Below the pieces are notes generated by a model. It was not told where the DNA came from, made no database searches, and saw nothing but the letters and a program-made list of their open reading frames with translations. A program made the translations under genes and the position numbers. A stretch of 64,000 nt of DNA from Bacteroidota bacterium (GTDB lineage: Bacteria > Bacteroidota > Bacteroidia > NS11-12g > UBA955), in assembly GCA_963169345.1 (NCBI GenBank), contig CAUJCT010000053.1:62001-126000 (forward strand), read 5' to 3'. This document shows positions 9,552 through 10,395 of the stretch, one piece after another. Numbering within the stretch: the first letter of the stretch is position 1; every line of letters starts with the position of its first letter.

Positions 9552-9625
9552 GGTGTGGTAGTTCAGCTGGTTAGAATACTGCCCTGTCACGGCAGGGGTC
9601 GCGGGTTCGAATCCCGTCCACACCG
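9552..9625 (+). tRNA. tRNA-Asp (anticodon GTC)
   Basis: The 74-base sequence folds as a canonical cloverleaf. The acceptor pair is 9552-9558 with 9618-9624 (GGTGTGG/CCACACC). The D arm begins at 9561. The anticodon stem is CTGCC/GGCAG around the loop CTGTCAC with GTC at 9586-9588. The T arm has loop TTCGAAT. The discriminator base is G, as required for Asp, and CCA is not encoded. It sits between its own promoter and a strong terminator. Confidence 0.97.
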
Positions 9626-9627
9626 CA

Positions 9628-9694
9628 ACCAAAATTAAAAAAGCCCATCGCCCAAGCGATGGGTTTTTTGTTTCCATCCAATTTTCCCAAGTCG
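9628..9694 (-). repeat. Inverted partial copy of the 175-bp repeat core
   Basis: Read on the minus strand, this stretch gives GCGACTTGGGAAAATTGGAT, then GGAAACAAAAAA, a stem-loop, and CTTTTTTAATTTTGG. The direct repeats downstream have the same order on the plus strand, with only the stem sequence and a few flank bases changed. The terminator of tRNA-Asp is therefore a member of the same repeat family in opposite orientation. Confidence 0.85.
9644..9669 (+). terminator. Rho-independent terminator of tRNA-Asp
   Basis: A perfect 8-bp stem CCCATCGC/GCGATGGG (9644-9651 with 9656-9663) around the loop CCAA is followed by six T and preceded by an A-run, so it could work on both strands. Its flanks are an inverted copy of the core of the direct repeats that follow. 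Confidence 0.92.
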
Positions 9695-9721
9695 CCCCAA
9701 ATCATCCAAAAAGATCATCTT

Positions 9722-10395
9722 AAAATGTTACCTCTGTACCTAAATATACCCAAGCGACTTGAAGAAAATTGGATGAAACAAAAAATCATCACGGCCCAAG
9801 TCGTGATGGACTTTTTTAATTTTGGTTTAGCACCTCCCTCTCGGGTTCAAGGCCTTAGCCTTAATCCTTTCTTATTTTTACTTCAATACATCCTTTAAAA
9901 TGTTACCTCTGCACTTAAATATACCCAAGCGACTTGAAGAAAATTGGATGAAACAAAAAATCAGCACGGCCCAAGCCGTGATGGTCTTTTTTAATTTTGG
10001 TTTAGCACCTCCCTCTCGGGTTCAAAGCCTTAGCCTTAATCCTTTCTTATTTTTACAACAATACATTCTTTAAAAAGTTACCTCTGTCTTAAATAAGCAC
10101 TAGCAACTTGAAGAAAATTGGATGAAACAAAAAATCATCACGGCCCAAGTCGTGATGGACTTTTTTAATTTTGGTTTAGCACCTCCCTCTCGGGTTCAAG
10201 GCCTTAGCCTTAATCCTTTCCTATTTTTTACTACAATACATTCTTTAAAATGTTACTTCTACACTTAAATAAGCACTAGCGACTTGAAGAAAATTGGATG
10301 GAAACAAAAAATCAGCACGGCCCAAGCCGTGATGGACTTTTTTAATTTTGGTTTAGCACCTCCCTCTCGGGTTCAAGGCCTTAGCCTTAATCCTA
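9722..10395 (+). repeat. Four direct repeats of 175 bp, each with a terminator-like hairpin
   Basis: Units start at 9722, 9897, 10072 and 10247; the first three are exactly 175 bases and the last is cut off at about 10395. Each contains GAAGAAAATTGGATG, an A-run, a hairpin (9787-9808, 9962-9983, 10137-10158, 10313-10334), a T-run, TTTAATTTTGGTTTAGC, and a conserved block CACCTCCCTCTCGGGTTCAA. Two stem versions alternate, CATCACGG/TCGTGATG in units 1 and 3 and CAGCACGG/CCGTGATG in units 2 and 4. Unit 4 has one extra G. Open frames through the repeats do not look like genes. The region from 9672 to 10435 holds nothing else that I recognise. Confidence 0.95.

Follow-up and report, generated by a model that had tools for sequence, protein, structure and literature searches.

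Tandem 175-bp repeats behind a tRNA-Asp gene in a Bacteroidota bacterium as the right half of a tRNA-anchored structured cassette

In the analyzed stretch of 64,000 nucleotides (the window), a tRNA-Asp gene is followed by a tandem repeat, which raises the question of what such an array is and how it arose. The original prediction described four direct units of 175 bp and offered three readings: an expanding terminator-derived repeat family, a remnant of tRNA-gene duplication or an array of small RNAs. Using Tandem Repeats Finder (TRF), the four units were confirmed as 3.9 copies with a period of 175 bp and 93% matches, and the pairwise identity between the units is 92.5–95.3%. Since TRF places the array at 9720-10394, its start is 9720 and not 9628, as had been assumed; the sequence 9627-9719 is the tRNA trailer and terminator and represents the left half of the fold described below. 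The array end (10394) is the final base of the 3′ strand (AATCC) of a fourth T-arm-like hairpin (T-hairpin), where the match of a covariance model (R1, see below) ends as well. Between 9627 and 10394 no integrase with cargo was found, and the ORFs listed there are short ones that overlap with the repeats. What is repeated four times is the right half of a structured cassette anchored at the tRNA gene (Table 1).

The 175-bp unit was found at this locus only in the 3.63-Mb genome and in none of 16 congeners (all genomes compared being draft or metagenome-assembled), and plasmid and phage records gave no match; the reading as a dispersed family was therefore rejected for the unit itself. The genome-wide search that had been proposed as a check thus returned a unique unit, but its architecture recurs elsewhere, so that the idea of a terminator origin survives.

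This idea rests on the claim that the core of each unit equals the minus strand of the tRNA-Asp terminator region, which was borne out by BLAST: the tRNA-proximal 69 bp match all four units on the opposite strand with 75–80% identity (E 7e-10 to 2e-13). The inverted copy lies 18.6 SD above block shuffles (z 18.6), and with E values of the 1e-10 class a chance similarity was rejected. By direct reading, the stem of the hairpin in this copy (S2) is CATCACGG/TCGTGATG in units 1 and 3 and CAGCACGG/CCGTGATG in units 2 and 4. In the latter, a T-A pair is changed to a G.A mismatch and a G.T pair to G-C. The observation that the stem differences mostly keep pairing was a correct comparison but a weak one, and direct reading of the four units gave no covariation within the array itself. 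The S2 loop CCCAAG is not inverted relative to the loop CCAA of the tRNA terminator (S1), so S2 is not simply a copied S1. As predicted, each unit is terminator-like on the minus strand, every unit having a bidirectional-terminator-like hairpin; by its sequence form, S2 of unit 1 is terminator-like on both strands. Of the proposed terminator-derived family, the relation to the terminator stands, yet the inverted copies make up one side of a larger, conserved cassette with a four-way junction.

This cassette became visible in the MFE fold of the tRNA trailer, the terminator and the first unit together. The region 9627-9870 folds as one structure (z −10.9), and no shuffle was equally good. The order from the base after the tRNA is P1, S1, P2, central arm, P2′, S2, P1′, box and T-hairpin. 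As a single strand, the cassette is predicted to form a four-way junction followed by a hairpin. A lone 175-nt unit folded no better than shuffled sequence (z −0.09). The box sequence between the junction and the T-hairpin is TTAGCACCTCCC in the window, and the hairpin resembles a tRNA T-arm with a palindrome in its loop. The main class of T-loop, GATCAC-n-GTAATC with a C.A mismatch, is lacking in the window, which has GGGTTCA-AGGCCTTAGCCT-TAATCC instead, a variant common in form to the tRNA-Asp cassettes of five congeners (G006, G009, G010, G011 and G016).

Table 1. Positions of the tRNA-Asp gene, the parts of the first cassette and the repeat units in the window.
Feature	Position	Strand	Evidence
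tRNA-Asp (GTC), anchoring gene	9552..9626	+	ARAGORN; Rfam RF00005, 68.5 bits
P1 left strand, from the base after the tRNA; partner 9811-9827	9627..9643	+	MFE fold
S1, tRNA-Asp intrinsic terminator hairpin, GCCCATCGCCCAAGCGATGGGTTTTTT	9644..9663	+	Fold; sequence
Left strand of P2 (T-run side) and of the central arm; partner 9754-9785	9664..9695	+	Fold
Repeat unit 1; comprises spacer and the right half of the first cassette, which is complete	9720..9894	+	TRF
Right strand of P2 / of the central arm; inverted copy of the tRNA terminator flank	9754..9785	+	BLAST minus strand; fold
S2 hairpin of unit 1, A-run left, T-run right	9787..9808	.	Fold; sequence
P1 right strand	9811..9827	+	MFE fold
'TTAGCACCTCCCTCT' box and T-arm-like hairpin GGGTTC-AAGGC-CTTA-GCCTT-AATCC	9828..9867	+	R1 covariance model; fold
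Repeat unit 2; box and T-hairpin 10001-10043	9895..10069	+	TRF; R1 15.0 bits
Repeat unit 3; box and T-hairpin 10175-10217	10070..10244	+	TRF; R1 15.2 bits
Repeat unit 4; box and T-hairpin 10352-10394	10245..10394	+	TRF; R1

For a blind test, the covariance model R1 of box and T-hairpin was used, which was built from 21 sequences, none of them from the window. With filters off, the top four matches in the 64-kb window were exactly the four units (unit 1: 9826-9868, 15.2 bits), each with a modest score of 15 bits and an E value of 0.05 over the window; the next-best match reached 9.4 bits. With R1, an 'AGCCnCTCCC' box followed by a T-arm-like hairpin was thus found in the window. Among 108 genomes of the order, 25 contain matches, all in the window's own family and distributed over eight genera. 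In genomes outside the training set, 18 of the 22 examined loci directly follow a tRNA gene on the same strand. The outer stem of the T-hairpin tracks the local tRNA (GAGAT..ATCTC, CGGAT..ATCCG) with two-sided changes (cells changed, 0/500 shuffles).

Within one Bacteroidota family, about eight genera have the same cassette layout behind genes for tRNA-Ser, Cys, Arg, Lys, Pro and Asp. In the genome of the window, the parts have the same order at tRNA-Ser-TGA, Ser-GCT and Cys, and a simpler form is present at Ser-GGA. The layout recurs with unrelated sequences, and each cassette in this genome and its congeners is built on the terminator flank of its local tRNA. In four genomes, 22 to 26 of 95 tRNA trailers carry an inverted flank of their own terminator (z above about 4), and the folds of the first cassettes have a mean z of −8.3, with values below −3 in 43 of 44 cases, both z-scores being based on block shuffles of two-base words rather than on exact dinucleotide shuffles. 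An outer helix enclosing exactly three branches was predicted for 34 of 44 first cassettes, and the conserved G-rich box is unpaired. The P1 and P2 arms match only within one cassette: the mean arm complementarity is 19.0 within a cassette, compared to 10.6 when cassettes of the same tRNA are swapped and 9.2 between different tRNAs. Between orthologous cassettes, 21 two-sided changes and 27 one-sided changes that keep the pair stand against 56 broken pairs (both directions summed); counts on alifold structures are skewed towards pairing, and the less biased projection count still contains the 56 broken cells. Selection on cassette pairing is likely but not proven, since pairs are kept by two-sided and wobble changes, yet broken cells occur. 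Because similar cassettes are found behind many tRNA genes across the family, they are apparently an undescribed kind of tRNA-tied repeat element.

At 12 of 43 loci, the 3′ end of the respective tRNA is repeated after the T-hairpin (0 in shuffles), and only to this extent does the reading as a remnant of tRNA-gene duplication hold. A second tRNA 3′ end after the hairpin is absent in the window (7/15), so the feature is not universal in the cassette family. Cassettes can also be stacked. At tRNA-Ser-GCT, two cassette types occur in opposite order in G006 and G016 (L194 and L224), with the tRNA 3′ end between them, and the array at tRNA-Ser-TGA of G011 (L275) contains three alternating cassettes that belong to two types. 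Tandem arrays of right halves are present at tRNA-Cys and Lys of G005, tRNA-Ser-TGA and Ser-GGA of G006 and tRNA-Ser-TGA and Arg-TCT of G016.

Further repeats were observed. Contig C251 of G011 (L262 1500-2083) contains at least four R1-type T-hairpins in tandem, with no tRNA within the fetched stretch. A second repeat type in the genome of the window lies behind tRNA-Met, Arg, Glu and Val genes (L058, L047, L077, L050, L054); it consists of the terminator followed by a GTCCCGTAGCGTGA..CTCTGCTACGGGAC hairpin and is tandemly repeated behind tRNA-Met (224 bp, period 180). Upstream of tRNA-Met (L042 1540-1767) and tRNA-Val (L054 1563-1811), pseudo-tRNA copies were found in which TCCCG..CGGGA or TCCGCC..GGCGGA palindromes take the place of the anticodon loop or of other loops.

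The slot occupied by the cassettes is used by protein-coding genes behind other tRNA genes. In seven genomes, 15 of 32 small GIY-YIG genes (Pfam PF01541) are located at most 600 bp downstream of a tRNA gene with the same orientation, compared to about 0.1 expected from the tRNA density; this tally was made by hand and excludes genes whose open frames are long, being of UvrC or about 470-aa size. The GIY-YIG genes run into a pseudo-tRNA whose anticodon or T loop contains hairpins (L052, L069, L202, L192). Their link to the cassettes is positional only. No PF01541 match was found in the window's part of contig C53, no GIY-YIG gene in the window array, and no single element with both a GIY-YIG gene and a four-way-junction cassette. 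Individual GIY-YIG ORFs lie right behind tRNA-Asn and tRNA-Arg (L052, C53:33999; L047, C20:19865 and 20341; L069, C47:19047 and 19570) and also inside tandem tRNA-fragment repeats, their C-terminus being encoded by the pseudo-tRNA; ORFs in the same tRNA slot were seen in six congeners. In another family of the order (G029, L029), tRNA-Asp is followed by a terminator, a GIY-YIG ORF and a tRNA-Asp 3′ fragment that has two palindromes in its T-loop, and the GIY-YIG arrangement therefore extends past the family containing R1. Some GIY-YIG proteins, such as Slx1, act on branched DNA, an activity that would suit a four-way junction. Standalone Slx1-like forms are treated in an earlier study (PMC1564403). 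Nothing matching tRNA-linked GIY-YIG genes or junction repeats was found in the open-access literature.

The best explanation, in which we place about even confidence, is a non-coding tRNA-anchored insertion cassette that was tandemly amplified; we infer both the mobility and the function of the cassette. Short non-coding cassettes would insert at the T-arm of a tRNA gene. The tRNA 3′ end and the terminator would then come from the left end of the inserted cassette, so that the tRNA remains intact, and the displaced 3′ end would stay behind a pseudo T-arm hairpin. The recombining enzyme would probably act on the folded DNA, either as a cruciform or as a single strand, and its best candidates are the small GIY-YIG nucleases in the same slot behind other tRNA genes. 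Unequal recombination or slippage of the right half may then have produced the window array, which ends together with the T-hairpin. The 3′ end that is needed differs between tRNAs, so the spread cannot be accounted for by simple transposition from one isotype to another, and some local copying would be needed.

A stronger version is put forward tentatively, namely that the cassettes represent a new class of very small mobile elements of 150–240 bp with T-loop entry, a cruciform and a GIY-YIG enzyme acting in trans. Such an element would rebuild the tRNA 3′ end and the terminator and close a four-way junction or cruciform using the local terminator flank. Small GIY-YIG junction nucleases would move or maintain it in trans, and stacked cassettes could change their order and have their right halves multiplied in tandem.

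Among the alternatives, it is unlikely that the minus strand of each unit encodes a small RNA and that the array consists of small RNA genes antisense to the tRNA trailer. Such an RNA would comprise the T-hairpin, a G-rich single strand 'GGGAGGTGC' and S2 with a T-run as its terminator. The T-run after S2 is indeed present on the minus strand, the G-rich box is both conserved and unpaired, and the amplified part is exactly the half that would encode the RNA. The sole conserved non-pair of the T-hairpin, C.A on the plus strand, corresponds to a G.U wobble when the minus strand is read, and minus-strand folds contain more G.U pairs than plus-strand folds (135 compared to 91; 26 compared to 10 cassettes), but this excess is largely due to that single T-hairpin position and the strand bias is weak. 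A promoter is harder to find: the Bacteroidota promoter motif TAnnTTTG (at least 5 of 6 matches) occurs upstream on the minus strand in 17 of 42 cases compared to 22% in shuffles, a weak enrichment across the cassettes, whereas the tRNA genes themselves have it in 39 of 42 and no such motif lies upstream of the window units. The small RNA reading of the original prediction was therefore not supported, as no convincing minus-strand promoter precedes the units and a lone unit folds like shuffled sequence. Above the Rfam threshold only the tRNA was detected. A known Rfam RNA was rejected, the sub-threshold matches being to unrelated families and looking like chance.

It is improbable that the cassette is a terminator or insulator. 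In this reading, two convergent terminators would shield the tRNA gene, S1 acting for the tRNA and S2 stopping antisense transcription; the P1/P2 pairing would follow incidentally from the mirrored flanks of the terminators, and the array would supply further terminators. By sequence form, S1 with its T-run would terminate on the plus strand and S2 with the complementary A-run on the minus strand, as in intrinsic or double terminators on opposite strands, and position and orientation fit at every locus. However, termination accounts neither for the outer helix P1, which lies 5′ of the T-runs, nor for the box, the conserved T-hairpin with its C.A mismatch and tRNA-matched stem or the trailing tRNA 3′ end, and at L064 S2 has no T-run on the plus strand.

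Similarly low is the probability of a neutral scar, left by tyrosine-recombinase islands that repeatedly integrated and decayed, with stacked tRNA ends slipping into tandem repeats: direct repeats of tRNA 3′ ends are present and the genome contains a tRNA-Arg-TCT island with a Phage_integrase gene beside the split copy, but decay would not yield arms pairing cassette by cassette, a four-way junction and box conserved across genera, or two-sided compensated changes between orthologous cassettes. Partial tRNA copies arising from integration are well documented (PMC9897764). The island is located on contig C19 of the window's genome (G000 C19:95433-158100; L082, L323, L324), spans roughly 62 kb and is apparently inserted in tRNA-Arg-TCT. 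Its left end shows the intact tRNA, an ATP-binding OLD-like protein and a UvrD-like helicase, which may be a Gabija-like pair; at its right end, the Phage_integrase gene adjoins a tRNA 3′-half fragment that still bears the old cassette. The sole apparent dispersed R1 copy in this genome (L282) was discarded as proof of mobility, as it is better explained as this displaced tRNA-Arg 3′ half at the far end of the island. The island shows that a cassette can be displaced without mobility of its own.

A comparison with known systems gave partial similarities. Elements integrating at tRNA 3′ ends (ICEs, prophages and islands) likewise have an intact tRNA at one end and a partial 3′ copy at the other and may occur in tandem; in contrast to the cassettes of about 150–240 bp, they are many kilobases long, and the cassettes lack an integrase, carry a palindrome within the T-loop of the partial tRNA copy and build their four-way junction on the terminator of the tRNA itself. 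REP/REPIN and MITE-type repeats are also short and non-coding, with imperfect hairpin ends and tandem arrays, whereas the cassettes are bound to tRNA trailers, have locus-specific arms and show no terminal inverted repeats common between loci. In seven genomes, Y1 transposase genes (PF01797) were not found beside cassettes, and a RAYT/REP mobilisation was rejected on this basis. In integron attC arrays, cassettes are bounded by folded single-strand sites and their order is shuffled between strains. Folded sites and reordered cassettes are thus shared; here, however, no attC consensus and no cargo gene were seen, and the location is nearly always at a tRNA. GIY-YIG homing-type genes use the same slot behind tRNA genes and end in a pseudo-tRNA with loop hairpins, but the cassettes carry no ORF.

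tRNA genes are classic landing sites of mobile DNA, and the guests known to us at these genes are kilobases long and bring an integrase. In the family described here, many tRNA genes hold a gene-free folded guest of roughly 150–240 bp whose distant arms pair. If the proposed mechanism is true, orphan standalone GIY-YIG genes would gain a defined target, and the cassettes would represent a compact system in which to follow the insertion, reshuffling and amplification of junction-forming DNA at an essential gene that stays intact.
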